A DNA stretch of 28,183 nt from a virus: positions 1 through 28,183 of IMG/VR virus record IMGVR_UViG_3300046532_003546. One strand, 5' to 3'. The notes under the pieces were generated by a model that saw only the letters and a list, made by a program, of their open reading frames with translations, ran no database searches and was not told the origin of the DNA. Numbering within the stretch: position 1 is the first letter of the stretch; each line of letters starts with the position of its first letter. Of this stretch, positions 2,659 to 28,036 are shown in pieces. A program made the translations under genes and the position numbers.

Positions 2659-3759
2659 TTACGGTTGTGGCCTAGGCTGTGCAGGTTTTATACCCCAAAA
2701 TTGTGGGTTATTCTGAACATCTTGTTTCATTAAAATAGATGCTACATCTGTTCCTGGGTGTGCACTAGCAACATCAATAAATTTGGTTGAAGGTTTTCTT
2801 TCTTTCATAGTTCTTGCATGCGAACTATCTATATCAGTAAGATTTTTAACCATATCTGCTGAAGGTCCGCCAACCTCTTCTAATCCTTTATCAATTGACT
2901 GTCGTATATAGGCTCCAGCTGCTAAAGGGTCTTGACCCATTGATGGGGCAAAATGATATAAAGATTCCCAGTACTTAGCTACTACATCTGGATCTTCTTT
3001 TGTAAGGGTTGGATGAGCTTTAAGCATTTTTTCAAAATAATCTTTTCCTTTAGCCTTATGACCATGCTCCTCAATCTTATCAATAACTTTGTCTATAAAG
3101 GCTTGAACAGACTGTAATACAGAGCCAGCTACGATACTAGCGGCAATATAAGGAAGCCATCCCTGTGCTTTTCCCATCATTCCACCTACTTGTGCTTCCT
3201 TCTTAAATTCTTCCATATACTTAGAAATAAATCTTTGTTTAAAAGATGCTTTTTTATGGAATGGATGGGATGGGGATTTTTTACCTCTAATAGCTCTATC
3301 TCCTATATCATATGCAAAAGCTCCTACACTAGCTACTACCTTTCCTACATCCTGTGCCGGTTTAGAATTAGTAATTTGTTTTGCCATTGCTTTAATTTTG
3401 TTAGCAGGCCATTTAGGGTATGCTTTTTTAACAGCGTCATATGGCTTCATTCCAGCCTGTAAATTGTGTTTTACTTTATCGTAATTAGCAACTTTTTTTA
3501 ATTTCATTCTATAATTAGGCTGCCCCATATAAGATAGTGCTGCTACTGCTGGGACTACTATTCCGCCAAACTTAGCTCCATGTTTTAAGGCATTAGGGTT
3601 TCCAGCATTAAATAATGTAGTTAATACTCCAGAAGAAACACCTGTGCTTACTCCACGTTTTAGAGCTCTCTTAGCTTTCTGTTTTTTAGATTGTTTTTTC
3701 TTTTTCAGGACATACTTTTGTTCTGCTAATTTATCGAAAACTTCTGCTGCTTTGCTCAT
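2659..3759 (-). CDS. Unrecognised head-region protein with N-terminal KLA tag
   Basis: A 366-aa basic protein beginning MSKAAEVFDKLAEQKY, the FDKLA form of the recurring tag. A Lys-rich stretch follows (residues 18-35), then hydrophobic Gly/Ala segments (about 45-80 and 195-220) that could contact membrane. Internal HKKASFKQRF and EEFKKEAQVGG repeat the K-x-A motif near residues 170-190. The last third is soluble and helical. The start overlaps the upstream stop as TAATG, so translation is probably coupled. It sits between the terminase and the prohead protease, but its length and lack of portal features do not support calling it a portal. Function unknown. Confidence 0.82.
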   Translation of the reverse strand: MSKAAEVFDKLAEQKYVLKKKKQSKKQKAKRALKRGVSTGVSSGVLTTLFNAGNPNALKHGAKFGGIVVPAVAALSYMGQPNYRMKLKKVANYDKVKHNLQAGMKPYDAVKKAYPKWPANKIKAMAKQITNSKPAQDVGKVVASVGAFAYDIGDRAIRGKKSPSHPFHKKASFKQRFISKYMEEFKKEAQVGGMMGKAQGWLPYIAASIVAGSVLQSVQAFIDKVIDKIEEHGHKAKGKDYFEKMLKAHPTLTKEDPDVVAKYWESLYHFAPSMGQDPLAAGAYIRQSIDKGLEEVGGPSADMVKNLTDIDSSHARTMKERKPSTKFIDVASAHPGTDVASILMKQDVQNNPQFWGIKPAQPRPQP

Positions 3760-4808
3760 TAACGTTTTCCCCTTTTTCCAGTGTAAGCCAAAATAGTTGG
3801 TTTTCTATTTTTGTACACCATACTTTTTTGTAAAATCTCTCCTTGCTGTCCTTTTCCAGCTTTCTTTCCGGCCTTACGACCAACAGCTAGTGCTCCAGCT
3901 CCTATAGATGTTTTAGGATGATTTTTTATAAAACCAAATAAGTTTGATAAAACTCTTTGTATATTACCACGTCTACCACCTTCATAAATTATTCTTACTC
4001 TTCCTGCAATTTTTTGTAGTGGTAATTTATATGAATCTTTTAATTCTGTAAAATCTCTTGCATACTTTAAAATAGCATTTTCAATTTTTGTTCCTCTAGT
4101 AAAATAATGCTCTATAGATGCTGCAGACTTATAAAACTCAGACTCTGGATTAACTACACCGCTAACCTCTGCAGTTTTATCTAGCTCAATATGAGGCGCA
4201 TACTTCTCTATTCTAGGAGTTAAGTGATCTATAATGGCATCACTGGTAATTGGGGCAGCAGCCTTTATAACCTCTGTTATATTGTTATAAGGGGTGTCAC
4301 CTAAAATTCCTTGTTTAGCTTGTTTTTCTAAGTTAGCATACTCTTGTTCTACGTTAGCTTCAGTCTCTACTAATGCTTCTTCTAAAAATGGTATTGCATC
4401 TCTTAGTTCTTTTGCAGCTATCATGGCTGTAGAAGTTGTTTCTTTGGCTGAGGCTACTTTTTCTTGAGGCTCTTCTTCAGAAACCGATTGGCTCATCTCT
4501 GATGCTACATCTTCGTAGTCTTTATCATAATCATCTATTTCAAATGGATCAGTCACAGCTTCTGTATTTTTATTATATACTGTTCTAAAATCAGCTAAAT
4601 CAAATTGAACATAATTATCTTTAGCAGTTTTTAATAAGTTTAAATAAGTCTCAGTATTAGCCATTTCAGCAACCCTTTGTAATTGTTCTTTGTTTAGGCC
4701 ATTATCTGACGCAACTTTACTAAGTCCATCATTTAATGGTCTGTTCTCTGAAATAAAGTCTTCAGAAAGTTTCTTACCTAATTCGTCTAGTTCGTTTACT
4801 GTTATCAT
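3759..4808 (-). CDS. Unrecognised head-region protein, probably leaderless
   Basis: A 349-aa protein. The N-terminal 150 residues are acidic and helical with repeated K-x-A motifs (LSKVASDNGL, LQRVAEMAN, LLKTAKDN). The C-terminal 80 residues are basic and Gly/Lys-rich, ending TGKRGKR. No domain was recognised. The start ATG at 4806-4808 lies only 9 nt beyond the -10 box of a strong promoter and has no Shine-Dalgarno, so the mRNA is probably leaderless. It is the first gene of a transcript running into the 366-aa gene and the prohead protease. The position directly after the large terminase is where portal genes commonly lie, but nothing portal-like is visible. Confidence 0.8.
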   Translation of the reverse strand: MITVNELDELGKKLSEDFISENRPLNDGLSKVASDNGLNKEQLQRVAEMANTETYLNLLKTAKDNYVQFDLADFRTVYNKNTEAVTDPFEIDDYDKDYEDVASEMSQSVSEEEPQEKVASAKETTSTAMIAAKELRDAIPFLEEALVETEANVEQEYANLEKQAKQGILGDTPYNNITEVIKAAAPITSDAIIDHLTPRIEKYAPHIELDKTAEVSGVVNPESEFYKSAASIEHYFTRGTKIENAILKYARDFTELKDSYKLPLQKIAGRVRIIYEGGRRGNIQRVLSNLFGFIKNHPKTSIGAGALAVGRKAGKKAGKGQQGEILQKSMVYKNRKPTILAYTGKRGKR

Positions 4809-4817
4809 GTTAGTTTT

Positions 4818-4846: not shown

Positions 4847-4853
4847 GTTATTT

Positions 4854-6401
4854 TTAGAATTTTGCCATACCTGTTTGAAGCTCTAGAGCAGTACTTGCAA
4901 ATAAAGTGGCGTGTACTGCATCATCTGGGCCTATATTTATATATCTAGACACATTTCTATCTTCATCATATTCTATTTGTACATTTAAAAAGTCATCTGC
5001 AAAATGGCGTGTATGGTCCCATTTTGGTAAAATTATCTCCCTTTTTTTAATTTTCGAAAAAAAATTGTCCATAGCCTGGTTTTTACTTAGTGTATACGCA
5101 GGCATCTTAGCATTCCACTTAATTCTTTCTTTCTGGTTTGGTAGGTGTTGGAAGGCAATAACTTTCGTGTGTCCTAATCTATTTCGTAACTCGGCATTAC
5201 TTGCTTCTCCCATACCATAGTCTGCTGCTACATGTATACACTTCCACTTTTTAAAAAGTCTTGGAAGTTCTCTATGTATAAAAGCAAAGTCAGCTTCTTT
5301 GCCTATAAACTTCTTCATATAAACAACTTTGTTTTTGTCACCCTGTCTTTGCATTATAGAAATAACTGTATTACTGCTATCACTATTTACAGGACCGTAA
5401 TCAACCCCCATTATAGAATGGTAGTCTTTCTGTGGTCCCTGAGGATCTTCGTCCATAGATAAGTCGGGATCGCAGATGGAAATAAGTTCTGCTTCAGATA
5501 CAGGCGTTACTCCTGCATCATATTCCATCCCCAATGTTTCATTATAGAAAATGCCTCTAGAAGTGTTTTGACGCTTTTCTAGTACGTCCTTCTTCCAATC
5601 TACCCATGGGGAATTTGCAAAGTGAAGTAAGCAGACTCTATATCCCTCTAAATCATTAGAATCATTGTTAGGTGAATGTCCTACCCACTCCCCTGTTTTA
5701 AGGTCTAAAAGTACGCCACATTTACTGCAAATAACTCCAGCATCACCAATACAGTCCTCATTTAGTAAATTCCAATGATTGCACGCTTGGCATTTAGGCA
5801 TAAATTCACACATAGTAGATCGACGCCAAATATTAGCTAATGTCCCTCTAGTTCGTTTGGGAGTTCCACAAAACCATGAAATTTTATGTTCCGATCTTGA
5901 CATAGTTTCTTGTATCACTGGTATTACATCCTCACGTAAATCCTGAACCTCATCAAATAAATTCATATCTGCAGAATACCCTCTAATTCTATCCGCACTT
6001 AATAAAGCATATCTTAGGTACATTCTACTTCCATTTAAGAATTGCTTCATAAAGACGTTTTGTATTAGGGAGGAATTAGTATAGTGTTTAGTTAAAAGGG
6101 GGCTTCCCTCTATAACTGGGTTTACTCTATCGTGAGAAAATACTTTGGTTTGGTCTACAGTAGGAGCAATATATAAGGTTTTAAAGTGGTTCATCATGGC
6201 ACTGTTGCTTACCATGATATTTGCTAAAGTAGTACTCTTAGCAGTTTGTCTACTAAACATCAAAACAACTTGTTTAGCACCTGTGTTGTATATTTGTCGC
6301 ATATGCGGGTAATCATCTAAAGAGAACGGTTGTCCATTTAAATGGAGAAAATTCTCTGCAAACTGACTACGGGTTAATTTGACTTGTTTTTTGTCTGCCA
6401 T
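4854..6401 (-). CDS. terL: Terminase large subunit (GpA-like ATPase-nuclease)
   Basis: A 515-aa DNA-packaging motor protein. The ATPase part shows a Walker A variant FSRQTAKST (residues 49-57) and Walker B MNLFDE (146-151), followed by a C-motif-like WFCGTPK (176-182). Residues 204-228 form a zinc-ribbon insertion (CQAC and CSKC), typical of the lambda GpA type. The C-terminal nuclease has GVDYGPV (D334), AADYGMG (D394) and a late acidic GPDDAVHATL. It would cut concatemeric phage DNA and drive it through the portal by ATP hydrolysis. All nine Trp codons checked are TGG and there is no in-frame TGA. The 5' end overlaps the S21-like gene by 28 bp, with only weak GAGA upstream. Confidence 0.93.
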   Translation of the reverse strand: MADKKQVKLTRSQFAENFLHLNGQPFSLDDYPHMRQIYNTGAKQVVLMFSRQTAKSTTLANIMVSNSAMMNHFKTLYIAPTVDQTKVFSHDRVNPVIEGSPLLTKHYTNSSLIQNVFMKQFLNGSRMYLRYALLSADRIRGYSADMNLFDEVQDLREDVIPVIQETMSRSEHKISWFCGTPKRTRGTLANIWRRSTMCEFMPKCQACNHWNLLNEDCIGDAGVICSKCGVLLDLKTGEWVGHSPNNDSNDLEGYRVCLLHFANSPWVDWKKDVLEKRQNTSRGIFYNETLGMEYDAGVTPVSEAELISICDPDLSMDEDPQGPQKDYHSIMGVDYGPVNSDSSNTVISIMQRQGDKNKVVYMKKFIGKEADFAFIHRELPRLFKKWKCIHVAADYGMGEASNAELRNRLGHTKVIAFQHLPNQKERIKWNAKMPAYTLSKNQAMDNFFSKIKKREIILPKWDHTRHFADDFLNVQIEYDEDRNVSRYINIGPDDAVHATLFASTALELQTGMAKF

Positions 6402-6592
6402 TTATGTCTCGATAAACTCTTTTGTTTTCTACGCTTGTCGCTAGGTTTAATATAATACATTCTAGACTTTAATTCATCAAAAAATTCATTAGCCTCTAAT
6501 GTTTTACTTAGCTGTCGTAACGCACTCTCTATATTATTGTTGCGTACCTTGACGTGAAATGGCATGTAATAATGTTTTTTTATCTTCATCAT
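6374..6592 (-). CDS. Phage homologue of ribosomal protein bS21
   Basis: A 72-aa, strongly basic protein. From residue 10 on (MPFHVKVRNNN) it follows the bS21 pattern: a KVR start, ESALRQLSK in the first helix, then FFDELKSRMYYIKPSDKR and a Lys/Arg-rich tail. Cellular bS21 sits in the small subunit near the anti-Shine-Dalgarno region, and phage-encoded copies are known from large phages, where they are thought to bias host ribosomes. The gene overlaps the upstream nucleotidyltransferase gene by 59 bp and terL by 28 bp, in different frames. The true start could be the first Met at 6592, the second at 6589 (weak AAGG nearby), or Met10 at 6565, which gives a bS21-like 63 aa. Confidence 0.82.
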   Translation of the reverse strand: MMKIKKHYYMPFHVKVRNNNIESALRQLSKTLEANEFFDELKSRMYYIKPSDKRRKQKSLSRHKWQTKNKSN

Positions 6593-7397
6593 CCTTGATT
6601 GTTTTTAGTTGTTCAAATAAGTTACCGTGTATTCCATGCTCAATCATCTTGAAAACAATATTTTTAAATGATTCTCTAGGAATGCCAAACCCTAATCTAT
6701 ATGCATCTTTTCTATCTGACTTTATAGACTTAGCTTGGCTAATTAGATCAGTAAGATCATCTTTTACCTCTCGTAATTTTCTATCTGTTCTTGCAGTATG
6801 CATTTCTGTTTTAGTTCCTAACTGCCTAAGAACCTTATAATCAGCAATATCTTTTAAGTACTCCTCTGCTTCTCGATTAAACTTATTTGCTATAAGCTGA
6901 GCAGTCATTAACTCGTCTCTAAATTGTTCCTTGGGTGCTCTAATGGTATCGACTGATGGTGGTGCTTTTAGCCAAGAGTCTTTAAGAACATCATATACCC
7001 CAAATTTATAATCTGCTCAGGTTTCGCTAGTAGATGGATTCTCAAAGTCATGTTCAACAATAAAATAATTTATAGGCCGTCTAGTTCCTTCTGCTAAATC
7101 ACCATTTAAAATATCTTTTTTATCATGGTAAAAGGTAGATAAGTTTTCTAACCTAACATTTACATCTATATCAGATGTTTCGGAATACTTAAAACCTGTA
7201 ATAGATCCTATAATAAATACTTCTTTTATAATGTTTTTAGGTAGAGAGCTGTTTAGCTTGTGTAAAATTTGAGATCTAATTGCAGGTAAGAGTCTTGATG
7301 GAACTATGTCACCATTTTCTTTAGCTCCTCAAACATCTCTTGCTATTTGGGGTTGTATGGGGTCTATAACTCCTGAAGTTTTGTAAAATTTTCCCAT
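6534..7397 (-). CDS. Nucleotidyltransferase-like protein (two in-frame TGA)
   Basis: A 287-aa protein seen only when TGA is read as Trp (codons at 7329-7331, residue 23, and 7017-7019, residue 127). It starts MGKFYKTSG, a version of the MGKFFKTA tag. Residues 58-82 carry a Pol-beta-type nucleotidyltransferase signature: GS (64-65) in VFIIGSITGF, then SDIDV with D76 and D78 as likely metal ligands. INYFIVEHD may hold the third acidic residue. The C-terminal half is charged and helical. Members of this superfamily transfer a nucleotide to nucleic acid, protein or small molecules; the substrate here is unknown. The gene fills the space between the 264-aa gene and the S21-like gene and ends in TAA. 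Confidence 0.85.
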
Positions 7398-7402: not shown

Positions 7403-8197
7403 TTACTTCGAGTTCTTTATAGTATCGTATATGTTCTTAGATTCTTTTGAGTCTATACTCTGGCCATAGTATCTTTTAGTTAATTTTGGATCAGCTTTAT
7501 CATGCAAACCTTGGTAAGTATTACCCTTATTATTAATTAAGCTATCACCCACTGAAAAATCTCATCCTGCAGACGTTTGTGGATTAAATTGTTTATAAGT
7601 ATATTTAGACCCTAAAGTGCTTACTGATGGATATAAGCTTTGTTGAATTTTCATATTTCTATTAACATCGCCTTGGCTATAGTTAGTTCCCATAACCCTA
7701 TTAATTTCATCTTTGTTTGGAGATCCATAAAAGTTATCATACTTGTTAGCTGCTACACTTTTTAAATCAGTTGAATCTGTATCGCTGTGGTTATAAGCCC
7801 CTTTTAAATATGTTTTTCTTTTATTGTTCTCGTTAATAGCGTTTCAACCCATGATTCCGCCTGCAGCCATTATGGGGTGTCTAACAGGCATTCCTACAAC
7901 TTGTCCAGATCTCTGAACTAGTTTTCTAGCTATCGGACTCTTTATATACATTGGAGATTTTTTATTAGTGGTTGCAAATGCTTTGGGATTATCAACAAAG
8001 TTAACTGTACGCTGAACAGCGTTTCCTGCTTTAGTCTTTTTGGCCTTGTCTATTCCTTTGACAAGAACCTTTTCAACCTTAGACGCTCCAGGGAGTTTAC
8101 GCGCTACTCCCTTTAGTAACGTACGAATAAGCTTTACTCGTGCAGTTTTCTCTATTGGTTTGGAGGTTAATCCATCTATATTAAAAAATTTCGCCAT
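7403..8197 (-). CDS. Unrecognised tagged virion-type protein (two in-frame TGA)
   Basis: A 264-aa protein, MAKFFNIDGL onwards, with IEKTARV near residue 16 as a second tag-like motif. TGA codons at 7844-7846 (residue 118, IMGWNAIN) and 7562-7564 (residue 212, TSAGWDFSVG) are read as Trp. The first 110 residues are very basic with a short hydrophobic piece before the first TGA. The remainder is polar, rich in Asn, Tyr and Ser. AAAGGA lies upstream of the ATG and the gene ends in TAA, 5 nt before the nucleotidyltransferase start. No family was recognised. Confidence 0.83.
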
Positions 8198-8214
8198 GTA
8201 ATAAGTTCCTTTAC

Positions 8215-9282
8215 TTACGCAAGGTTTGTATTATATTGTTTTCCGTTCCAGCTAAACTCTTTCTTTCCAGCTTTTCTTGCTGATGCAAATGCTGGTCCAA
8301 ATTTACCTGATCCAGCGTTTGATGCTTCGGCTGGTGGTGTTTTTGCTGGCGGTGTTCCTGAACCTATTCCTGATGCTTTTCCAGTTGTATCGTCAGTTTT
8401 AGCACCTGTTCCTGAACCTATTCCTGATGCTTTTCCAATATTATTTTCAGGTTCACCTTTAATTTCTCTTTTAGTTACTTCACCTTTTGTTATAGTGGCT
8501 TTACCTGTTTTACCAGTTAACCCAGCTTTCTCTACATTCGCTTTAAGCTTGTTTTTTTCTATCTCTAGTAATTGTTTTTGTCTATTTACTGGTTTATTGT
8601 CTGGTTCCTTACCTGCCGGTTTAGCCGTATTTCCTGCTGTTGCTGCTTCACCTTTTGAAAAATCTTCTTTTAAGTTATCTCCCCATTTCTTTCCACCTTT
8701 AGCAACGGCTGCGCCTGCTGCTGCTGCACCTGTTGCAACTGCTTTACCTCCAGCTTTTGCTACATTTGCTCCAGCTTTAGCTACATTAAGTCCGGCCTTA
8801 GCTGCATCGCCTGCGATACCAACTGTGCCCTTAGCAACACCGCCAACAGTTTTAACAGAACCTTTAGCTACATCGCCTACACCTTTAGCAACTTGTTTAG
8901 CTCCAGCTCCTACATCTTTAAATTTATCTCCCATGTATTTACCAGCTCCAACTGCGCCTTTACCTACTGCCTCAGCTCCACCTTTAATTACTTTTCCAGT
9001 TCCTTTAGCTACAGCCCCAACTCCTTTACCTACAGCTTTTGCGCCTGTTGCAACTGCTTTACCTGTTCTTTTAACAGCCCCAACCGCAGCTCCTGCTGCT
9101 CCGGCTAAGAATTTTCCTGGATACCATTTAGCTAACTTTTCAAGATCTTCCTCTGAAAGATTGTCCCAATCTAATTCTGGAAAAACTTGGCTAGCTGAAA
9201 TCTTTAACATCTCATCATTGAATGCTTGAGTTATGATAGCTTGCTTCTGCGTATCTAGCTCATATGCCGATAATTTAATCAT
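8215..9282 (-). CDS. Ala/Gly/Lys 11-mer repeat protein with AF.DE..KI tag
   Basis: A 355-aa protein. Residues 17-31 contain ITQAFNDEMLKISA, an extended tag, followed by LEKLAKWYPGK. Residues 60-195 are low-complexity Ala, Gly, Lys and Val with a clear 11-residue rhythm (units such as AVGKGVGAVAK, VAKGTVGIAGD), like LEA or synuclein-type amphipathic repeats that bind membranes or nucleic acid. A linker holds two copies of GKASGIGSGT, matching a 30-bp DNA repeat. The C-terminus, FASARKAGKKEFSWNGKQY, is a compact motif that I recall from the ends of phage virion proteins. GGAGG precedes the ATG and the gene ends in TAA. Internal or ejected virion protein is an inference. Confidence 0.82.
   Translation of the reverse strand: MIKLSAYELDTQKQAIITQAFNDEMLKISASQVFPELDWDNLSEEDLEKLAKWYPGKFLAGAAGAAVGAVKRTGKAVATGAKAVGKGVGAVAKGTGKVIKGGAEAVGKGAVGAGKYMGDKFKDVGAGAKQVAKGVGDVAKGSVKTVGGVAKGTVGIAGDAAKAGLNVAKAGANVAKAGGKAVATGAAAAGAAVAKGGKKWGDNLKEDFSKGEAATAGNTAKPAGKEPDNKPVNRQKQLLEIEKNKLKANVEKAGLTGKTGKATITKGEVTKREIKGEPENNIGKASGIGSGTGAKTDDTTGKASGIGSGTPPAKTPPAEASNAGSGKFGPAFASARKAGKKEFSWNGKQYNTNLA
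8354..8383. repeat. 30-bp direct repeat, copy 1
   Basis: This is identical to 8408-8437 and begins gttcctgaacctattcctga. It encodes the duplicated GKASGIGSGT linker of the 355-aa protein, a recent in-gene duplication. Confidence 0.85.
8408..8437. repeat. 30-bp direct repeat, copy 2
   Basis: Second copy of the 8354-8383 repeat, 54 bp further on. The spacing is a multiple of three, so the protein frame is kept. Confidence 0.85.
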
Positions 9283-9283
9283 T

Positions 9284-10135
9284 TTAATTAACCTCCGTTA
9301 TGTGTTTTATCTGGCTACCCATAAGTTCGCCAGGTTTTACTTCCGTACTTTTGCCGTCCGCGTTGACAACTAAAGTTTCTATCTGAAATTGTATAGCCTC
9401 AAATAAATCTTGCTTATCCCCAGTTTCTTTTTCTAATCTCTCTAAACGATCAGTAAGCTTAACTGCTAACGCACCCCATTTCTGAGCTGTATCTGGATCA
9501 ATCTTTGACCTCTCTTTAAAATTATAATAGCTGTCTACCATCATATCTCTTAACATACTATTAAAAGACTTGTCTGGGGCAGCTCCTAATTTTCATACTA
9601 AATAATCTTTGTCTCCTAAGAGGGCCAATTTATAAAATTTTAATAATCCTGTATCTTTAATAGATGCAACGTACTCTTTCTTTTGGTCTAAGTTCCAATT
9701 AGACACATTAAAAAAGTAATGTAAAAATTGTCTTATATCATCAGAGCTATAATGAATATTATACTTTCCATTAACTATTAGCTCTATATCTTCTTCAGTA
9801 ATTCCTGCTAAAGCCATACTCGTAATTAATCGGTACATTAGAGGATCGTTTAATACTTGAAAAGCTCCGTCAACCCCCTCTATACCTGAGGCTACTTCAG
9901 CTTTAAATACATATCCGTACATTTTTTCTACTTGCCAATCAGCTAATCAAAGAAGGTCAAGAACTTCTTTACCTTTAAAGTAGTCTGGTTGCTCTGATAA
10001 AAATCTTTGGTAAATAATAGAAAGGCCTTTAGATGGGAAGTCTCTATTTATTTTAGATAGATTACTTTCAATATCCGTTAAGGACATTTTCCCAATTACT
10101 AGGGCCTCGATATATTTAATAAATGGTACTTGCAT
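9284..10135 (-). CDS. Unrecognised 283-aa helical protein (two in-frame TGA)
   Basis: One gene made of three fragments joined by TGA read as Trp at 9947-9949 (residue 63, VLDLLWLADW) and 9593-9595 (residue 181, KDYLVWKLGAAP). The frame is kept exactly across both. The protein is soluble, mixed charge and mainly helical; the region around 185-240 (SFNSMLRDMMVD, PDTAQKWGALAVK, DRLERLEKE) looks coiled-coil. A small terminase or neck role is conceivable for a gene of this size upstream of terL, but no diagnostic motif is seen. ATG overlaps the stop of the zinc-ribbon gene as TAATG. It lacks an obvious N-terminal tag, unlike most neighbours. Confidence 0.83.
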
Positions 10136-10799: not shown

Positions 10800-11294
10800 C
10801 TAAACCTTAGCTTTTTTCAAAGCTCTTAATACTTTTTTATCGCTAGGTAATATTCCTTTTCTTTCTTTTCGGCTTCTACCTATATTAGCTCTTGATTTCA
10901 CAGCTCTAACTCCTGTCATTATTGCTCCTGCCTTAAGTCCGCTTTTCAGGACGGCTTTAGGGCTAGATTTTAAACCGATTACTTTTCGGGCCAATGCAGT
11001 ACCTCCTGCGAATAGAGAACCGTGAAATAATGGGTTAGTGCCTAGCCTACTTATAGGGTAAGTTTTTCCACCAGTATTATGCTTCTTACTAAGAGCATTT
11101 AACATTATTCCTTCGTTAGGAGTTATGCCTTGTTTTCCTTGAGCTGCTCTTCCCATAGCTGCTCTTTGGTGTATAGTTCTATCTATCCCCAAAGAATATG
11201 CATTCATGAAGCTAGTAATACCTCTACTTACAGGATACGTTTTCTTCTTAGATTTTTTAGCTATTTTCTCAAATATGCTTTCTGCTCTAGTCAT
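10800..11294 (-). CDS. Tagged basic protein, 164 aa
   Basis: It begins MTRAESIFEKIAKKSKKK, one of the clearest class II tags (compare MTRAEQVFDKLAEK at 18832). The rest is very basic with Gly/Ala-rich hydrophobic pieces (about residues 88-130) and two copies of a KTYP[VI]SR motif (about residues 19 and 78) that mark an internal duplication. A strong AAAGGAG lies upstream. The stop is TAG. Internal head protein is an inference; no known domain is visible. Confidence 0.83.
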   Translation of the reverse strand: MTRAESIFEKIAKKSKKKTYPVSRGITSFMNAYSLGIDRTIHQRAAMGRAAQGKQGITPNEGIMLNALSKKHNTGGKTYPISRLGTNPLFHGSLFAGGTALARKVIGLKSSPKAVLKSGLKAGAIMTGVRAVKSRANIGRSRKERKGILPSDKKVLRALKKAKV

Positions 11295-11316: not shown

Positions 11317-11688
11317 TTAATCCTTTATAGCTTTAGCCGTGCCTTTAGCTGCTACTGCTCCAGCTCCAATTGCTCCAAGCCCTAAAAGTCTTTTAGTTTT
11401 TTTCTTCCGAAGATCTGCGGGCCCAAATTTACCTTTGCTAGCTTTTCTAGCACCTTTTCCAACAGCCGCTCCAACGCTTCGGACACCTTTATCTATGGCT
11501 TTAGCTCCTTTTTTAGCAGCTTTTGATCCACCTTTAGCTATGTTTTTAACAGCTTTTACAGCCTTAGCAAATAAGGCTCCTTTTCCAGCGATCTTTTCTA
11601 ATTCATCAACAAAAGCGGCTTGTGTTATTTTCATGCCCTCTTCAGTCAGCTCATTATAAGAAGCTGTTTTAGTTAATTCTTTGCTCAT
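11317..11688 (-). CDS. Tagged basic Ala/Lys repeat protein, 123 aa
   Basis: The N-terminus carries LTKTASYNE and then ITQAAFVDELEKIAGKG (residues 22-38), the fullest form of the extended tag. Residues 40-90 are Lys/Ala/Gly repeats like those of the 355-aa and 170-aa proteins, with KGKFGPADLRKKK after them. The C-terminus is Gly/Ala-hydrophobic. It is the first gene after a good promoter, with an AAAAGGGGAA ribosome site about 10 nt before the ATG. The role is likely similar to that of the other Lys/Ala repeat proteins. Confidence 0.83.
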   Translation of the reverse strand: MSKELTKTASYNELTEEGMKITQAAFVDELEKIAGKGALFAKAVKAVKNIAKGGSKAAKKGAKAIDKGVRSVGAAVGKGARKASKGKFGPADLRKKKTKRLLGLGAIGAGAVAAKGTAKAIKD

Positions 11689-11772: not shown

Positions 11773-12102
11773 CTAAAAGCCTCCTAAGGATTTAATAGTT
11801 GCAATAGTTAATCCTATCAGCCCACTAAACATAAGTCATAGTGCTTTAGTTATCCCACTTTTTCATATAACTAGACTATTTACTTTAACTATAACCCCAT
11901 CATCAGGATTATATAATCTTTTTTCTAAACTTCTTATATGTTTAGAAATGCCTTCAAACTGTTCTTCTTGTTTTTTTGTATGTGCTAATTGGCTGGCCTG
12001 TAGACGTTTAACTTCTCTACATAACTCTTTAACTTCACCGTTAGGAAGGTGCGATTCTATATTATCTAGTCTATCCATTATCTGTTTATTTGTTATTGCC
12101 AT
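11773..12102 (-). CDS. Holin-like coiled-coil plus C-terminal membrane protein (two in-frame TGA)
   Basis: A 109-aa protein. Residues 1-70 form a charged coiled coil (MAITNKQIMDRLDNIESHLP, later KRLQASQLAHTKKQEEQFEG). Residues 85-104 form one hydrophobic span (ALWLMFSGLIGLTIATI) and then KSLGGF. This layout resembles XhlA/BhlA-type phage lysis or virion-associated membrane proteins. The membrane segment exists only if TGA at 11863-11865 (residue 80) and 11836-11838 (residue 89) are Trp; with normal code the protein would be truncated before it. All its Trp codons are TGA. The stop is TAG. AAGGGGAG precedes the ATG. Holin function is an inference. Confidence 0.78.
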
Positions 12103-12116: not shown

Positions 12117-12428
12117 TTACTTGGCACTTGCCACAGTAGTATTTTGATTATTTTGTATCTTCGCATTAAGTTGCTTTATAGTTACCTTAGTTCTAGAAGG
12201 CTCTGCACTAAAAAATTTTGGGCCACTTACTTTATTAGTGGTAGCCTTATTAATATTTAGATTTGTATCTTTTTCAGGGTTAAGCTGCTTTATATACTTA
12301 TGAGGCGCGCCTGTACTACCCTCATCAAAAGTCACCTCTTCGTCTTCTGGTGTAGACTGCTTATCCTCCATACCAGTGGGGTGTAGATCAGAAGCTAGTT
12401 TATATAAAGACTCGGTAAACTTATTCAT
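12117..12428 (-). CDS. Unrecognised 103-aa tagged protein
   Basis: MNKFTESLYKLASDLHP at the N-terminus matches the tag (YKLAS). The remainder is polar and low-complexity (Asp, Glu, Asn, Thr), probably disordered. The start overlaps the stop of the 157-aa gene as TAATG, and the gene ends in TAA, 14 nt before the holin-like gene. No family was recognised. Confidence 0.8.
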   Translation of the reverse strand: MNKFTESLYKLASDLHPTGMEDKQSTPEDEEVTFDEGSTGAPHKYIKQLNPEKDTNLNINKATTNKVSGPKFFSAEPSRTKVTIKQLNAKIQNNQNTTVASAK

Positions 12429-12901
12429 TATTTAATCCCATGGTTTTTAATTATAGTCTGCACATTTTTACGGTATTTCTTTTTAACCGCATTAAAGGCC
12501 TTATCATCTGGATGAACCCAATCTTTCATTGGTACAGGATTTCCATATCTTTCTTTAGCTCTGTGTCTAGCATAGGCTAGTGGTTTTACGGAAGGGTTAA
12601 TTATTCCTTCTTTTTCATCTGCCACCATATCATCGGTTCAGTCTTTAAATGTTCTTTTTTCTGGAGGGTCTGGGTGTGTTATTACTGGCTCTGTTTTTGG
12701 TTTTGGTTTTGGTTCTGGTTTTGGTTTTGGTTCTGGTTTTGGTTTTGGTTCTGGTTTTGGTTTTACCGGTTCTTTTGGTACATTATCCTTCTCATCAACT
12801 ACAACCGGGAATCCTGTGATTTTGTCAGGCTTAAATTCAGAACGTAGTGGGTCTCCATAAATATTATCTAAATCATTTGCTGCTTTAAAAAATTTACCCA
12901 T
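12428..12901 (-). CDS. Tagged protein with KPEPKPKP spacer (one in-frame TGA)
   Basis: 157 aa, starting MGKFFKAANDLDNIYG. Residues 45-70 are a Pro/Lys/Glu repeat (KPEPKP units) encoded by an 18-bp tandem DNA repeat; such rods often act as rigid, TonB-like spacers. TGA at 12638-12640 (residue 88, TFKDWTDDM) joins this to a basic C-terminal domain of about 65 aa (YARHRAKERYGNPVP, NHGIK). Good AAAGGAGAG lies upstream and the start overlaps the previous stop as TAATG. Reading TGA as stop would split spacer and basic domain into two ORFs with no clear separate ribosome site. Confidence 0.83.
12699..12766. repeat. 18-bp tandem repeat, 3 full copies plus a partial one
   Basis: The unit on the plus strand is ggttttggttttggttct, at 12699, 12717 and 12735, followed by a partial copy. 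It encodes the KPEPKP rod of the 157-aa protein and is prone to copy-number change. Confidence 0.9.
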
Positions 12902-13788: not shown

Positions 13789-14201
13789 TACTTACTAGCC
13801 ACCATATTAGATTTAGCTTTTTCTTTTAAAGACTTAAAATAATCATCTACTGCTGCAGGATAGGTTTGTCCAGAATTAACAAGGCTTAACGAATCCTTAG
13901 TATGTACATCTTTTATATTTGGAAGAGTCATCTTCTTCATTGATTTTAACGTTAAGTCTTTATATTTTGAGTCGGTTATATCACCAAAAGTATTATTAAT
14001 AAACTTACCGTGCTTTTGTTTGTTTTTAGAAATTAGTACCTTGGTAGCTGCGTCTACAACAAACTGAGGTGAATAAGCCTTTACGGTATTATATCTTTTA
14101 ATATTTCTCATAGTCTTTTCATCCTTACTCCCCTCGAGAGCAATTCGAGACGTAATGGCCTCTTCTAATTTTTTATCTGCTGTTTTAAAAAATTTACCCA
14201 T
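13788..14201 (-). CDS. Unrecognised MGKFFKTA-tagged protein, 137 aa
   Basis: It starts MGKFFKTADKKLEEAITSR. The rest is basic, helical and soluble (SKDEKTMRNIKRYNTVKAY, later VHTKDSLSLVNSGQTYP). No domain was recognised. It abuts the upstream gene directly (its ATG follows that gene's TAA) and overlaps the next by TAATG, so it is part of a coupled run of tagged genes. Confidence 0.82.
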   Translation of the reverse strand: MGKFFKTADKKLEEAITSRIALEGSKDEKTMRNIKRYNTVKAYSPQFVVDAATKVLISKNKQKHGKFINNTFGDITDSKYKDLTLKSMKKMTLPNIKDVHTKDSLSLVNSGQTYPAAVDDYFKSLKEKAKSNMVASK

Positions 14202-18152: not shown

Positions 18153-18832
18153 TACTCTTCCCCCGATACTTCGTTAATAAGGCCCCTTATAAAAGACTTC
18201 TGTATAATTACTGCAGCTTCTTTTTTAAATGGGTCTTTGTATTTTTTTGATAATCTAGACTGTGGATTCTTAAACGCTTCCGATAGACTAGAAGTGGGAT
18301 TCTTAAACGATTCCCTAGTAACTCTAGGGTTAGTAGCGGGATTGCTTGGAGGAATATTACTTTGTGATAATCTGTGTCCTCTTTCTAAAGACTCTCCCTC
18401 GTATGATACTTTGGGTGGTGTCATCACTTTAGGGGCTTTCGCGGTTTCAACGGATTCTCCATCATAGTTTCCTACTTCAACTGATTCCCCTTCATAGAGT
18501 CCTACCCCAGAAGGGTCGCTAGTAACATTTGATTCTGTACTTTCTGCAGTGCTTATTGCAGCAGGTTTTTTTACTATAGCAGGGTTTTCCTCTGCATTCT
18601 CTACATTAGATCCGGCTAGATCCTCTTGTGCAAATTGATTTCTATATTTTTTATTAAAAACGTGCTTTCCAGCCTCATGTCTTTTTCTAGCCTTAGCCTC
18701 AGCTTTAGCCTTCCACTTATCCATAAGATTACCAGCATTTTTTTCTATTAGCTGTTCGGATTTAGACAAAGAGCTTGTGTGAGTAGCGCCTTTTTCTGCT
18801 AATTTATCAAATACTTGTTCTGCTCTAGTCAT
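18152..18832 (-). CDS. Tagged 226-aa protein with EGES and FKNP repeats
   Basis: MTRAEQVFDKLAEK is followed at residues 22-33 by a second tag copy, LSKSEQLIEKNAGN. Residues 36-60 are a charged helix. The middle is disordered with three [YN]-[ED]-GES units (YEGESVE, YDGESVE, YEGESLE). Near residue 175 come FKNP-type repeats (ESFKNPTSSL, EAFKNPQSRL, KKYKDPFKKEA). The C-terminus is a helix ending EVSGEE. AAAGGAG lies upstream. It appears to be a flexible, repeat-built virion protein; no family was recognised. Confidence 0.82.
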   Translation of the reverse strand: MTRAEQVFDKLAEKGATHTSSLSKSEQLIEKNAGNLMDKWKAKAEAKARKRHEAGKHVFNKKYRNQFAQEDLAGSNVENAEENPAIVKKPAAISTAESTESNVTSDPSGVGLYEGESVEVGNYDGESVETAKAPKVMTPPKVSYEGESLERGHRLSQSNIPPSNPATNPRVTRESFKNPTSSLSEAFKNPQSRLSKKYKDPFKKEAAVIIQKSFIRGLINEVSGEE

Positions 18833-18833: not shown

Positions 18834-19346
18834 TTAAATATCTCCTTTACTCTTAGTTTGTGGTTTAGTGGCTGCCAAATAGCTGCTATCTACCTTATCT
18901 GATACTGTCAGATGTCCTACCCTTTTAGCTGCTGGGGGTTGTACTAAAAAATTTGCGTATTTAACGGGTTCAGGCAGTTTCGCTGGTTTAGCGGGTGCTG
19001 CTTGTGGTGCTGGTTTCACCGGTGCTGCGGGTGCTGCGGGTGCTGCGGGTGCTGCTCCAATAGCTGCTCCTACATCTTTGGCTACTCCTTTAGCTGCTCC
19101 GGCTATACCTTTGGCTGTTCCGGCTGCCGCTTTGGCTGCTGATCCTACTCCTTTAGCCGCTGCTCCTACATCTTTGGCTACTCCGGATCCTACAGCTTTA
19201 ACTGCTCCGGCTATACCTTTGGCTGTTCCGGCTGCCTTTGCTCCTACAGCTTTAGCTGCTCCGGTTACACCTTTAGCTATATCTTTAATATCTGGTATTG
19301 CGCCTCGTTTTTCTAAAATTTTATCTAATGTTCTAATTCGTCTCAT
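18834..19346 (-). CDS. Ala/Gly/Lys 11-mer repeat protein, 170 aa
   Basis: MRRIRTLDKILEKRGAIPD, then residues 22-95 made of Ala/Gly/Lys/Val repeats with an 11-residue rhythm (AKGVTGAAKAV, AKDVGAAAKGV) very like the 355-aa protein at 8215-9282. A PAAPAAP rod encoded by a 9-bp tandem repeat follows, and then a short globular-looking C-terminus (KYANFLVQPPAAKRVGHL). AAAAGGGGA lies upstream. Membrane or DNA binding by amphipathic repeats is an inference. Confidence 0.82.
   Translation of the reverse strand: MRRIRTLDKILEKRGAIPDIKDIAKGVTGAAKAVGAKAAGTAKGIAGAVKAVGSGVAKDVGAAAKGVGSAAKAAAGTAKGIAGAAKGVAKDVGAAIGAAPAAPAAPAAPVKPAPQAAPAKPAKLPEPVKYANFLVQPPAAKRVGHLTVSDKVDSSYLAATKPQTKSKGDI
19021..19056. repeat. 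9-bp tandem repeat, 4 copies
   Basis: Three ggtgctgcg units followed by ggtgctgct. It encodes the AAP rod of the 170-aa protein. Confidence 0.85.
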
Positions 19347-19624
19347 TATTTAGTCCCCTTTTTATTAATCCTTTTACTTCCTGATAATAGTGTTGCTGCG
19401 GCTGCTAGTCCTAAAAGACCTCCTGCAGAAAAACCTTTTTTTGCTCCAGTAAATTTTGGCATGCGAGATAGCCGGCCGTCAGCTGCTACATTCCGTTTCT
19501 TACTTCAACGCTTCATATTTACTTGAGCACCTATAGCTCCCCCAAGTATTCCTGCTGCGCCAACAGCTTTCTTAGACTTTTTCTTTTTAGCTAACTTTTC
19601 CATTATATGTGCTGCTTTAGTCAC
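19346..19624 (-). CDS. Tagged 92-aa basic membrane-like protein (one in-frame TGA)
   Basis: It starts with GTG at 19622-19624 after AAAGGGGAA and reads MTKAAHIMEKLAKKKKSKK, a clear class II tag. TGA at 19505-19507 (residue 40, NMKRWSKKRN) is Trp. Two Gly/Ala-rich hydrophobic segments (about residues 20-34 and 64-81) flank a basic middle. The stop TAA overlaps the next ATG. The tag, ribosome site and overlap support the gene even though both its GTG start and its TGA hide it from standard gene finding. Confidence 0.78.
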
Positions 19625-20692: not shown

Positions 20693-22924
20693 TTATTTTG
20701 TTTCTGAAACAATAGTTTCTAACTCCCTTAGTACTCTGGAAACACGAGCTAAGCTGTGCATAGCTGTTTTAACAGGTTCCTCTGGAACATGGGATAATCC
20801 CATTCGTACTGTGATTAATGTTTTTGCTAAGTCTGATGATGTTTTTTCTAAGTTTGGTGCTAATTGAATATAATCCATTATATTTTCTTTATTCAAAAGA
20901 CCTAAAGATAGTACAGCATCTACTGTAGTTTTATCTTCAAGAACTGAAGCTTCTTTTACTAAGAACTCGTTTAATTCTGGTATAGAAGAAGAAAGCTTTT
21001 CAAACTTTTCGGTTATCGCTTCACCAATATTTCTTGTACTTTCAGGAGACTTGATATTAGACCTTAATCCAATTACTTCTCCACTTCTTAAGGAAGATAG
21101 CTTCTCTAATTCTGCGCTAGAAATATTACAATGGATTGCTGCCCAAGAAGCTCCAAGCTTTGTTAAGTTTCTAGTGTCATTACCATTTTTAGCATATTTC
21201 TCAAATTCGTTTCCTTCTAAATAATAAAGACCCGCAGTATCTCTCCCACCATAATGGCTAACCTTTTCAAAAGTCTGTGCATAGTCTACCTCTATTTGTT
21301 TGTGAAGAGGAATAAACTCTACACTTTTTGGTAAATAATGAGCATTTTTCTCATATATATGTGGTTTGATTCCACTTCCTTTTGAGTCTGTCGGTAGGTA
21401 TGTAGAAACTTTTCCACTATCTGTTTTTACTACTAATTTAATAGAGCTAAAGTTTGCTGTTTTTTCAATATTATCTGCTACATCTCTATGCATCTTTCCG
21501 CCGCTTAGTTTAACATAGTTTGCATTTCCAGGTACATAATAAGCGTTTTTTATAGTTTCGTGTGGAATAACTTCTTGAGATTTCATTTTAATAGGATAAT
21601 ATGTTAATTTTCTTAATCCATCATAACCGGTAATTTCGTAATTACCTATTGAAGCTGTTTTCTGTAAACTTACAATTTCAAATGGGTTTATTGCAGAGTC
21701 CCCAATTATAAAGGTTCCAGTTTCTCCTAACATCGGCTCACTGCCTTCTAAGTCAAAGCTAGAAAAGACTATATCAGATGAAGCTTCTTTAGTTTCATAC
21801 TTTCTATCAGAATTGACATATAAAGTTTCGTTTCTTCCTAATACTTTATAAGCATTTGTCGGTGTAATATCGTCTGTTTTAATTATATCAATGATTTCGC
21901 CTGGTTCAGTAACCTCATTCCCTACTTTAAACATTCCGTAGGAGCCTTTTACAGGTGTTTGTGTTGCAAGTCCATGATCTATAGCTTCAGATGCTGGAAC
22001 AGAACTTAATTGTGCATATTTATCAAAAGATGCCCAATCTTGGTTCTCTGTAACAACTAACGTAGCCTCACTATCGATTACCTTATAACTATTACTATAA
22101 GTTCTTTCTTTTGCTTCAACTTCCAGCTCTTTTGCTGTTGCATATTTACTCATTGAAGCTATTTCAGACTGAGTTACTGGTACTTCCCAAACATAGTCTA
22201 CCCTAGAATTAGCTTGTTTAATAAAATGGTTACCTCTAGAATCTTCATAAATCATGTGTCTATCAATATCAATACCTCTTAACATGTTTTGTGTAAATGA
22301 TTCTTCTGAAGATGTGTTGATTGCGGCTATTTTTTCAATAACGTCGTAAGTGCCAGAGGATTTATACTGTGTAACTACTTCTGGGTGTTTGTCAAGATAG
22401 TCTAAAATATTGTCTATATCTTTTCTATTAACGTTAGAAACTTTTTCCATAAAAGATGCAAGTTTTATTGCAGGTCTTTCAGCAAAAGTAGTCCCCTCTT
22501 TTTGTGCACCACTATAATTACCTAAAGCGCTATTATCAACTAAACCAAACAATGATAAGTTTTGACCAATTCCGCTATTAACTCCATGAAATGCGTCGGG
22601 GGAGGCAAGCATGTTTCCTAATGTTTCGGCTGTTAGCGGGTAAGCAGTTCCATTTAACATTACTACGTCCATATCAGATAACTTATAGTCATTAACTATA
22701 ATAGGTATAGATGCCGTTCCAATTTTTAGAAGTCCGACTCCATATCCTTTAGCGTTATCCTTTCTTTTTCACTCAATATTAACTCCACTATTCTGAAATT
22801 GCGGAAACTTCTCAAGAAACGATGTTATAATTTCTTTAACCCATTTTGTTGAATCTGTAGATAAGGCCATTGCAGCAGTCTTTTCAAACCCTGGGTATGC
22901 CTCTTTCATAAATAAATCTTTCAT
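20693..22924 (-). CDS. Large unrecognised virion-type protein, 743 aa (one in-frame TGA)
   Basis: TGA at 22769-22771 (residue 52, NSGVNIEWKRKDN) extends the gene 84 codons upstream to ATG 22924, which has AGGGGAGAA at good distance and lies about 40 nt from a promoter. The N-terminus holds FEKTAAMAL, and further K-x-A motifs occur (LASFMEKVSNV, VIEKIAAINT). The protein is soluble, mixed alpha/beta, with repeated short blocks of the form E/Y-x-V-x-G-x-x-x-Y and many Tyr/Lys. Size and position suggest a structural or ejected protein. No family was recognised. The other Trp codons are TGG. Confidence 0.87.
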
Positions 22925-23708: not shown

Positions 23709-24539
23709 TTAATCTCTATCCCCATCTTCTTTCTCTGGGCTTTGCTTCTTTCTTCTCTCTTTTCTGCACTCTGCTATAGTATAGGTATCGTCATATATAA
23801 ACTGATAGTCATTTTCATCTAACAAGTTACATATTCTATCTATAGGTATAAAATAACCCATATGAGTAATTGCATCTGCTGAGAAACCCATCGGTTGGAT
23901 GGAAATTCGTGATGGAACACCTATATACTCATAGCTTTTTCGTGAGTTTGACCACCTGTATACAGCCCCACCACTATTACCATAAATAGTTTGTGCAGAT
24001 GACATCCAGTACTTGTAGTGATCAATTTCATCGTCCATGTAGGATATTAGTCCTTCTGAAGCAATGGGTGGGTGTCCTAAAGACGCTCCAACGGCGTAAC
24101 AACTATCAAAGATGTGTACACTCTCTATTTCTTTAACAGGGAATAGTTTGGCTACATGGTCATTAATATTCTCTTTGTCTCTAATTCTTAGTAGAGCCCA
24201 ATCCTGTCCACCATCTACCTCAGAATAAGCAACGATATCTGCCTCCATTGCAAAAGACCCCACACAATGAGAGTAATTATTGTATCTAAAGAACTCTACA
24301 TTAACAGTGTCTAATTTCTCAGTATCAACTTTTCGTTTGAACGTTGGGTTCCATTTCTTTTCTACATCTATACACTTTTCAACTACGTGGTGATTGGTAA
24401 TAATGTATGTATGAACTTCTCCATCATGTTTTTTAGAATAGACTACTGTACCAGATCCGCCCGACTGCTTTGATCTAACCCTAACAGTGGGATAAAACAT
24501 CTCTTCGTGTTTTTGCTTTATTTCTTTAAATACTCCCAT
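23709..24539 (-). CDS. Trypsin-like serine protease
   Basis: 276 aa with a full S1-type triad: His in YIITNHHVV (residue 50/51), Asp in DWALLRI (D113) and Ser in IYGNSGGAVY (S189, GNSGG). GSGTVVYS precedes the His strand as in HtrA-like peptidases. It has no signal peptide and no PDZ domain. The C-terminus is highly charged (ECRKERRKKQSPEKEDGDRD). AAAGGAG lies upstream of the ATG. It sits in the tail-type operon between the amidoligase-SET gene and the Ala/Thr-rich gene. The substrate could be a virion protein or a host protein. All four Trp are TGG. Confidence 0.87.
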   Translation of the reverse strand: MGVFKEIKQKHEEMFYPTVRVRSKQSGGSGTVVYSKKHDGEVHTYIITNHHVVEKCIDVEKKWNPTFKRKVDTEKLDTVNVEFFRYNNYSHCVGSFAMEADIVAYSEVDGGQDWALLRIRDKENINDHVAKLFPVKEIESVHIFDSCYAVGASLGHPPIASEGLISYMDDEIDHYKYWMSSAQTIYGNSGGAVYRWSNSRKSYEYIGVPSRISIQPMGFSADAITHMGYFIPIDRICNLLDENDYQFIYDDTYTIAECRKERRKKQSPEKEDGDRD

Positions 24540-24562: not shown

Positions 24563-25681
24563 TTAATCTATTATGTCGTATAGGGTATAATAAGTAGTTA
24601 ATTCTTCGCCTTTATCTATCTTACGTAAACTAACAATATTATTTACTCCTAGCTCTTGGTCTGTTATTCTACAATTCGGTTCTTCGGAATGATTTATAAA
24701 TCCACCTAAAGGTGTTCTAACAATAGTCCCCTCAAATATATGCCTAGGACCACTAAACCCTACATGTGACGGTCCGAAGTTATATCCCATCTCAAAGTTT
24801 TCCGTTACAAACAATCCTAACCCCTCTATATTGGATTTCTTTATTGTTACTCCCTTTGGTAAGGGTCTATATGTCTCCTGCTTTTCCACTTCTATCACTC
24901 CTTCTAATTCTTTATATTTATCTCCAAACTCTTTTTGCTCTATAAGCTGCATATATAAATTAGTTCATTTTTTTATAATATCAAACTCTAAAGTTGATTC
25001 GGCATATCTAAATTCTACTGTTCCAAAATCTCATAAACGTAAAAAGTTAAGCCCTGCCAAAGTATTTCTCATGAGTACATTAGAAGATACGCGCTTCCTA
25101 TTAAACTTGTCTTCTCTGGGGGCTCATACTTTGTGCGCCTTAAATCTTAAGCATTTTTCTAATAAAGTCTTGCGCTCTTCGACTGTCGATGTAATAGGTT
25201 TGCGAAATAAATTATTATAGTGTAATCCTATAGTTCTGCAAAACCTGCTTGCGGGATGTCCAGGCCTTCGCTTGATGGGAATAAGTTTTATAATTTTTAC
25301 TTCGTTTAATAAAACTGCCATTATTAGATCATAAAACTCATTAACATCCTTTTTGTCCCTCCAGTCACTGATATCAACATGTATATGTAATCCACAAGTA
25401 TATTTAGTAAAGCACTCAACCGACTTTAGATATTCTAAATAGGGTTTTAAGTCTATAAAGCTATCTCATGATAATATCGGAGAAACTAATTCTAGGGAGT
25501 GCTGTCCCAATTTACTGGGTATGCTATCATCTGGAACTATTTTTCAAAAAACCGTAATACTGTGTAATTCTTCTGGGTCTTCGATATACTTTACATCTTG
25601 TCCTAACGACACTAATTCTTCTTCTAACTTTTCTCCACTCAACGGAGAAACAAATTCTACTTCAACTCCAAACGATCGCAT
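24563..25681 (-). CDS. Amidoligase-SET domain fusion (five in-frame TGA)
   Basis: A 372-aa protein recovered only with TGA = Trp at residues 46, 72, 186, 217 and 239. Residues 1-240 fit the putative amidoligase family (PF12224, COOH-NH2 ligase): FGVEVEFVSPL at the N-terminus, FWKIVPDDSI, LELVSPIL, CGLHIHVD (96-103) and GTVEFRYAEST (220-230). Residues 271-372 form a SET domain: IEGLGLFVT, GFINHSEEPNC (327-337) and GEELTTYY (358-365), the SAM-binding and catalytic motifs of lysine methyltransferases. The ATG overlaps the spike-like gene stop as TAATG. One polypeptide would join amide-bond formation with lysine methylation, so both may modify the same protein (inference). Confidence 0.85.
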
Positions 25682-27651: not shown

Positions 27652-27853
27652 ACCTAAATATAGGTAGATTTATACTATATTGTCAACCCTTGAAAGTGGT
27701 GAATTTTGGGGGTAAATAAGGTATAAGATATATAGTTGTGGGCTTATAGCCTACGCTACTACCAAGCAATGGTTGACACAGAATATGCAAAATGTTCTGC
27801 GTAAAATTAGAATAATAACAAATGACAATAAACAAATAAAAGGAGAAATTCTG
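27652..27853. other. Divergent intergenic region
   Basis: 202 bp between the leftward 656-aa gene and the rightward 60-aa gene. Besides the minus-strand promoter it holds a small hairpin (GGCT-TAT-AGCC, 27731-27741) and a plus-strand TTGACA at 27773-27778 that lacks a -10 box at proper distance. The plus-strand promoter is therefore not identified. Confidence 0.5.
27657..27686 (-). promoter_or_regulatory. Sigma70-like promoter giving a leaderless transcript
   Basis: TTGACA (27681-27686) and TATATT (27657-27662) with an 18-bp spacer on the minus strand. Only 5 nt separate the -10 box from the ATG at 27649-27651, so transcription should start at or next to the start codon. Confidence 0.75.
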
Positions 27854-28036
27854 ATGAATTTCATTAAAACAGCAGGTGCAGTAGCAGCAGGAATAGTACT
27901 TTCAAATATAGTAGGTGATATCTTTAACGCAGGTGTTCAGACATTAGGTGGTCTATTTAATAGAACTGGCTCTGATGATCAAGATACTTCGGGAAACGAT
28001 GCCCCAGTGAAAGACGCTCCGAAACCAAAAAAGTAA
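27854..28036 (+). CDS. Small tagged hydrophobic protein, 60 aa
   Basis: The only clear plus-strand gene. ATG 27854 lies 8 nt after AAAGGAG; an upstream in-frame ATG at 27773 has no such site. MNFIKTAGAVAAGIVLSNIV joins the K-T-A motif to a hydrophobic helix (residues 8-36), followed by an acidic and then Lys/Pro tail ending KPKK. It ends in TAA directly after A AAA AAG, a slippery-type heptamer. Membrane-active small virion or lysis-related protein is an inference. Confidence 0.75.
   Translation: MNFIKTAGAVAAGIVLSNIVGDIFNAGVQTLGGLFNRTGSDDQDTSGNDAPVKDAPKPKK

Follow-up and report, generated by a model that had tools for sequence, protein, structure and literature searches.

N-terminal tags ending in a predicted prohead protease site in an uncultured tailed phage and its relatives

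In an uncultured tailed-phage fragment, 17 of 35 genes encode proteins with a five-residue motif, φ-x-K-x-A (φ, hydrophobic), close to the N-terminus, the K lying at residue 4–17. For this placement 1.39 genes are expected, and 7 was the maximum in 5000 shuffles. The window, as we call the whole stretch of DNA analysed, is the full 28,183-base virus record. From the enrichment of the motif, its placement, its lineage-specific reuse, the differing tags on homologous cargo and the fold of the protease, we propose that tagged proteins would bind the prohead core, be packaged and cleaved, and finally be ejected. The motif is highly likely the recognition site of the prohead protease, and the N-terminal extensions that precede this core, e.g. 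in MTRAEQVFDKLA and MGKFFKTA, are likely capsid-targeting sequences (CTS) of the T4 type. Overall, a protease site combined with a lineage-specific loading tag that is removed in the head is the best explanation, which we hold with good confidence.

Genetic code, motif statistics and tagged genes

The genetic code of the window reads TGA as tryptophan. The frame starting with MGKFYKTS meets a stop after 22 codons in the standard code and reaches 287 aa with TGA as Trp. With this code, 35 genes cover 94.6% of the window and end in 29 TAA, 6 TAG and no TGA stops, and their Trp codons comprise 23 in-frame TGA and 62 TGG. Homologs in related phages mostly show W at the alignable TGA positions (80 of 128 aligned cells, five positions), one position having W in 35 of 35 cells. 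Several "proteins" of the standard code are therefore pieces of single genes, and the counts that matter are based on the corrected set. An earlier note on this DNA had reported a shared N-terminal motif on more than 20 proteins and proposed a large cargo set. The motif is real, and 26 of the 35 genes carry at least one site if internal ones are counted; the N-terminal form is confined to the 17 genes given above, several ORFs of table 11 being fragments of genes that had been split. The site is also more than a tag.

In a six-frame search all but one of the peptides quoted in that note were exact. On the minus strand, MTRAEQVFDKLA starts at 18832, MTRAESIFEKIA at 11294 and MTKSEELIYKTA at 18152; the class I peptides start at 14201 and 13788 (MGKFFKTA), 12901 (MGKFFKAA) and 7397 (MGKFYKTS), and the extended peptides AAFVDELEKIAG and QAFNDEMLKISA at 11619 and 9228. 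The exception, MTKAAHIMEKLA, is present in none of the six frames; its close variants in the window are MSKAAEVFDKLA and VTKSEKLIYKYA.

Before the TGA=Trp gene set was used, φ-x-K-x-A occurred 66 times against 21 expected. With that set and composition-preserving shuffles the values are 70 and 24, so that the comparison with shuffled proteins proposed in the earlier note places the motif far above them. Several tagged proteins are rich in K and A, which would suit an artefact of composition or of helix repeats in such proteins. The shuffles, however, give 24 and not 70, a K-to-R control motif is flat in the window (8 vs 7.3 expected), K..A stands alone among all 400 φ-x-X-x-Y pairs (z 9.9; runner-up 3.4), and φ-x-K-x-A shows no excess in T4. 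Chance and composition are ruled out by the shuffles and the flat control, and the probability left to an artefact of any such kind is negligible. In the window neither the T4-type motif [LI].E[AGS] (12 vs 15.8) nor the SPN3US motif is in excess, which rules out a T4 or phiKZ cleavage motif there.

The site logo, built from 572 distinct sites of two scaffold-like families, reads [LMIF]-x-K-x-A-[S/E/A]. Its information lies mostly within −4 to +3 around K, and it shows no seven-residue (heptad) periodicity, ruling out a helix or coiled-coil repeat. The logo also bears on the idea that the tag is an amphipathic targeting or assembly helix which docks on the core and stays uncut. This idea draws on the amphipathic appearance of MDKAEIVFEKLA and similar tags and on the many copies in scaffold-like proteins, but it is at odds with the missing periodicity, with the confinement to −4 to +3 and with sites at the borders of the protease domain and close to the start of the capsid protein, places cleaved by related prohead proteases; we consider it very unlikely. 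By the same logo and by analogy, the cut probably falls after A, S being preferred at the next position.

The proteins that share the motif are otherwise unrelated, as the earlier note had stated: past the first 20 residues, blastp finds no match between window proteins at E<0.01. Together with synonymous codon differences among the class II tags, this speaks against tags as remnants of gene duplication. The DNA of the class I tags (MGKFFKTA) is almost identical between copies, and recent copying may be involved.

The tagged genes lie on the minus strand with the exception of the last. A nucleotidyltransferase-like protein of 287 aa (6534–7397, in-frame TGA) carries MGKFYKTS and has homologs with other tags in the related loci L033, L039 and L076. 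It is followed by a 264-aa protein with N-terminal PIEKTA and K at residue 17 (7403–8197, in-frame TGA) and by one of 355 aa with QAFNDEMLKISA near the N-terminus plus LEKLA (8215–9282). The MTRAESIFEKIA tag belongs to a 164-aa protein with no homolog among the related loci (10800–11294); the next protein (123 aa, 11317–11688) has two sites, MSKELTKTA and AAFVDELEKIAG, and MNKFTESLYKLA starts a protein of 103 aa (12117–12428). Three consecutive class I genes encode proteins of 157 aa with MGKFFKAA (12428–12901, in-frame TGA), 295 aa with MGKFFKTA and an internal LGKFFKTA (12901–13788, in-frame TGA; DUF5662, E 8.2e-14) and 137 aa with MGKFFKTA (13788–14201). Further tags are MSGSLLNLGFVKTA (118 aa, 14202–14558), MRTLSPFFGLLKQA (244 aa, 14583–15317), MPNKFHSVKAEHLFEKQA with additional LKKIA and FIKKA (284 aa, 15317–16171, in-frame TGA), VTKSEKLIYKYA (297 aa, 16174–17067), MTKSEELIYKTA (361 aa, 17067–18152, three in-frame TGA) and MTRAEQVFDKLA with an internal KSEQLIEKNA (226 aa, 18152–18832). 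An 85-aa protein starting with MEKLA (19346–19603, in-frame TGA) is a minimal and uncertain form, and MNFIKTA tags a 60-aa protein on the plus strand (27854–28036). Among the 17 tagged genes about one or two are probably chance hits, e.g. MAKQIILNDRDVNKDA.

Prohead protease, capsid and core proteins

The gene at 802–2628 (minus strand) encodes a prohead (head maturation) protease of 608 aa with a catalytic domain at about residues 44–217. It matches the PHROG head maturation protease (E 2.8e-8); no Pfam model was found at E≤0.01, and sequence search gave no solved structure. In an AlphaFold (AF2) model of residues 1–260 (mean pLDDT 79), the best match points to the fold of T4 gp21 and the herpesvirus assemblins: VIA-align ranks T4 gp21 (5jbl) on top with Z 10.6 over 127 residues (rmsd 2.8), and the next rows are all herpesvirus assemblins. 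Foldseek alone was weak on this model. H94, S145 and D197 are invariant in 33 homologs, and their individual catalytic roles would follow those in gp21-type enzymes.

In this protease the site directly flanks the catalytic domain at either end, as LTKTA at residues 26–30 (2539–2553, minus strand) and LSKVA at residues 212–216 (1981–1995, minus strand). K28 and A30 of the first site are invariant in 33 proteases within a variable region. A site before the catalytic domain is present in 27 of 27 protease relatives (3.3 expected), and one at most 20 residues past it in 25 of 27 (1.2 expected), while the catalytic domains of the 27 proteases show no excess. Both flanking sites recur at the equivalent places in phage G gp19. 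All prohead proteases studied trim the capsid N-terminus, and SPN3US gp245 also cleaves its own C-terminus (PMC7411985, PMC5694885); these known cut places match the positions of the sites in the window group.

The capsid gene is absent from the 28-kb fragment. In relatives it was assigned from gene order, the Arash annotation "major capsid protein" and a profile match to the capsid structure of phage G (6wkk, E 1.8e-14). Of 50 capsid proteins, 41 contain φ-x-K-x-A in the first 45 residues, where 4.6 are expected. The motif is missing from the capsid protein of phage G, although the protease of this phage has both sites.

Five core head genes in the window hold 34 sites against 5.7 expected. 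Next to the protease, an acidic core/scaffold-like protein with the site MQKIA (311–778, minus strand) belongs to a 66-member family that adjoins the protease in relatives. On the other side, a protein of 366 aa tagged MSKAAEVFDKLA with 5 sites (2659–3759, minus strand) is conserved between the protease and a scaffold-like gene of 349 aa with 9 sites (3759–4808, minus strand). Two of these 9 sites are conserved across homologs: at 34% mean identity, K117 and A33 are invariant and K31 and A119 nearly so, which places K31–A33 and K117–A119 among the few (near-)invariant columns of the family. A head-core-like protein of 743 aa (20693–22924, minus strand, one in-frame TGA) has an N-terminal MKDLFMKEAYPGFEKTA and 11 sites, its homologs in the related genomes G005 and G006 having 8 and 14. 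The terminase large subunit at 4854–6401 (minus strand; Pfam GpA_ATPase, 1.4e-14) gives context outside the tagged set.

By terminase, the nearest annotated relatives are Salmonella phage Arash and Vibrio phages D69, D148 and D181, all distant at about 30% identity; the protease relatives add Bacillus phage G gp19, and IMG/VR contains at least 80 related loci. Genes in the relatives were called with a simple longest-ORF caller and not taken from curated annotation. In the complete genome of the cultured phage Arash (263 ORFs), six genes show an excess of φ-x-K-x-A at p<0.01, namely the protease gp222, its neighbours gp218, gp220, gp223 and gp225, and gp242. The remaining genes show none (71 vs 78). 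N-terminal tags are likewise not in excess in Arash (4 vs 5 expected), so that Arash was dismissed as a tagged phage despite its cleavage motif, and tagging is not universal.

As a positive control, T4 was analysed in the same way with its own known motif. The gene at 104117–104926, by its position presumably the gp22 scaffold, ranks first and gp23 third, and the MKTYQEFI tags are recovered as well, with four CTS-like ORFs found. The method thus recovers a proven system, and the window signal exceeds that of T4.

Four lines of evidence, i.e. the protease flanks, the capsid N-termini, the scaffold-like genes and the specificity in Arash, led us to read the motif as a recognition site. A different signal, for import into a phage nucleus-like compartment, for membrane targeting or for degradation, is highly improbable: short N-terminal signals of such kinds are known and the tagged genes of phage G are scattered over its genome, but the identical core shared by the capsid, the protease and the scaffold-like proteins and the lack of excess in Arash beyond the top six genes speak against it. 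The mechanism of the earlier note, in which the 802–2628 protease cuts a capsid-targeting signal resembling that of T4, is probably right for the most part. The gp21/assemblin fold, the core shared with protease flanks, capsid and scaffold-like proteins, and the absence of an Arash excess outside a few head genes make it the best explanation; to be corrected is the conserved unit, which is the five-residue φ-x-K-x-A, the preceding residues being lineage-specific. Double and internal copies, which the note had mentioned, do exist, and the internal ones are better read as sites of maturation or scaffold shredding than as additional tags.

Lineage-specific tags and putative cargo

The residues before the core are common within a genome and differ between genomes. 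The window uses M[TS][KR][AS]E..[FI][ED]K.A and MGKFFKTA; among the related genomes, G004 has MDKAEIVFEKLA on at least 5 proteins, G005 has MKYFEKIA on at least 8, G006 has TYWELMTKEA and MLKKLGFEKQA, and G007 has MSNVYLEKIA. In phage G, MKRLIKKA and its relatives occur on about a dozen proteins. Pre-core similarity within minus between genomes reaches 3.03, a value to which paralogs among the within-genome pairs may contribute; 2000 permutations gave at most 1.09. Homologous proteins wear different tags. DUF5662 proteins start with MGKFFKTA in the window, MDKAEVLFEKLA in G004 and MKYFEKQA in G005, with no tag in L039; nucleotidyltransferases with MGKFYKTS in the window, MIKFLKKMA in L033 and MSNQYIKKQA in L039, some homologs having none; and SNF2 helicases with MRYFEKNA in G005 and MNPYLIKIA in G007, with none in Arash. 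For most cargo proteins of the window, the related loci contain no homolog. Judged by sequence, the putative cargo includes SNF2 helicases, nucleotidyltransferases, DUF5662 proteins, a ferritin-domain protein of phage G (E 1.6e-13) and a LigT-like phosphoesterase in L072 (weak match, E 0.003).

If the peptide were a cleavage site only, trimmed without any targeting role while the proteins enter heads by other contacts, the five-residue core would account for the sites in capsid, protease and scaffold, and the variation of pre-core residues across lineages would fit. Cutting, however, needs none of the pre-core residues that unrelated proteins of one genome have in common far above permutation, and homologous cargo wears the tag of its own lineage. 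This alternative is unlikely. Since the tag ends in the site of capsid, scaffold and protease, the tags very probably load proteins and are cut, which would make the list of injected proteins readable.

We propose that core and scaffold-like proteins would assemble first and that cargo would enter the pathway through its N-terminal sequence of about 8–18 residues, docking on the prohead core via the lineage-specific prefix (MTRAEQV, MGKF). Cutting at the two sites that flank its catalytic domain, the protease would free itself; it would also shorten the capsid protein by about 25 residues and shred the scaffold-like core proteins at many sites. As the final part of the tag would be a cleavage site, the tag would come off once the protein is packaged, and the cargo would then lie free in the head and be ejected along with the DNA. 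With less confidence, we lean towards a loading code shared by Bacillus phage G and a large clade of big tailed phages, most of them uncultured, with a common site and an own address peptide for each lineage. Genes would become injected effectors by gaining a prefix of about 10 residues, and cargo such as helicases, nucleotidyltransferases, a phosphoesterase and a ferritin-like protein could be read from sequence.

Injected phage proteins have as a rule been identified by virion proteomics, which to our knowledge covers only a handful of model phages. If the tag can be read, a sequence search would reach such proteins in phages never brought into culture, and for Bacillus phage G, which ranks among the largest phages grown in laboratories, it yields a list of predicted cargo. 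A role in early host takeover or in counter-defence would suit the SNF2 helicases, the nucleotidyltransferases and the LigT-like phosphoesterase. The reading further predicts a short tag that could be moved to other proteins to load them into heads of this type, and a protease specificity with K at P3 and A at P1, unlike the Glu-specific enzymes of T4 and phiKZ. In our searches of the open-access literature, neither a K-x-A prohead site nor tags of this kind had been described before.

Comparison with known systems

Similar to what is predicted for the window group, the prohead protease of the SPN3US/phiKZ system (gp245), from giant phages, processes the capsid and ejection proteins as well as its own C-terminus, with several sites per propeptide; unlike the predicted enzyme, it cuts after Glu (A-x-E or S-x-E), mostly in long propeptides of more than 100 residues (PMC7411985, PMC5694885). 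For DarB of phage P1, the N-terminal 30 residues suffice for capsid loading (PMC9024508), but P1 Dar proteins lack a consensus, whereas that of the window tags is clear. Phage G resembles the window group in the two flanking protease sites (gp19) and in its dozen or so starts of the MKRLxKKA type, and differs in its capsid protein (gp27) without a site, its genome-scattered tags and its tag residues.

The closest parallel is T4, where packaging and cleavage are proven, whereas in the window group both are predictions. In IPIII, the N-terminal ten residues are enough for packaging, with targeting and processing using different residues (PMC9026906), and this precedent of a ten-residue CTS joining both functions is the ground for proposing an analogous mechanism here. 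As with the CTS of IPI–III and Alt, a short N-terminal peptide with a processing site at its end, a predicted one in the window, is common to unrelated proteins, internal ones in T4, and as with gp21, one protease of assemblin-type fold is predicted to serve scaffold and capsid proteins. The motif differs (φ-x-K-x-A vs L/I-x-E), the tags are unrelated to MKTYQEFIAEA, and 17 of 35 window genes are tagged against the four CTS-like T4 ORFs of our scan. Because the T4 motif is not in excess and the tags differ, we say that the window tag works like a T4 CTS, not that it is one.

Reading of TGA in the window and in related phages

TGA is a sense codon, in all likelihood for tryptophan, in the window genes, which under code 4 contain 23 in-frame TGA codons and no TGA stops; the coding share is then 94.6%, and tryptophan predominates in homologs at the in-frame TGA positions. 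Genes with in-frame TGA are located, all on the minus strand, at 6534–7397, 7403–8197, 9284–10135, 11773–12102, 12428–12901, 12901–13788, 15317–16171, 17067–18152, 19346–19603, 20693–22924 and 24563–25681. The terminase, protease and 349-aa scaffold-like genes of the window are free of such codons. The altered code may be common to a subgroup of related phages, since the protease frames of L039, L040, L042 and L052 (G008) end early under the standard code. In G008 this stop is one in-frame TGA.

A gene beside the terminase, and a long terminase ORF in a relative

A small protein matching the PHROG ‘ribosomal protein S21’ (1.9e-11; 6374–6592, minus strand) adjoins the terminase gene of the window. 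The terminase ORF of the related genome G004 (L017; 127282–129888, minus strand) comprises 868 aa vs. the usual ~515, possibly owing to an intein or other insertion.

Unusual enzymes and candidate head proteins

With TGA as tryptophan, 24563–25681 (minus strand) is one gene, whose product has both a putative amidoligase domain (PF12224, 5.6e-21) and, at the C-terminus, a SET domain (2.1e-7), an unusual combination for a phage. The gene adjoins one for a trypsin-like peptidase (23709–24539).

A ferritin-domain protein of Bacillus phage G (255160–255879, plus strand, L143:15160–15879; PF00210, 1.6e-13) starts with MKRLFKKA and is a candidate DNA- or iron-binding protein packaged in the head. The related locus L072 encodes a LigT/2H-phosphoesterase-like protein (7998–8534, plus strand; weak Pfam match, E 0.003) with the tag MSTRTYWELMTKRA. 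Its injection and a counter-defence role are possible, because folds related to LigT/2H-phosphoesterases include phage anti-CBASS enzymes.
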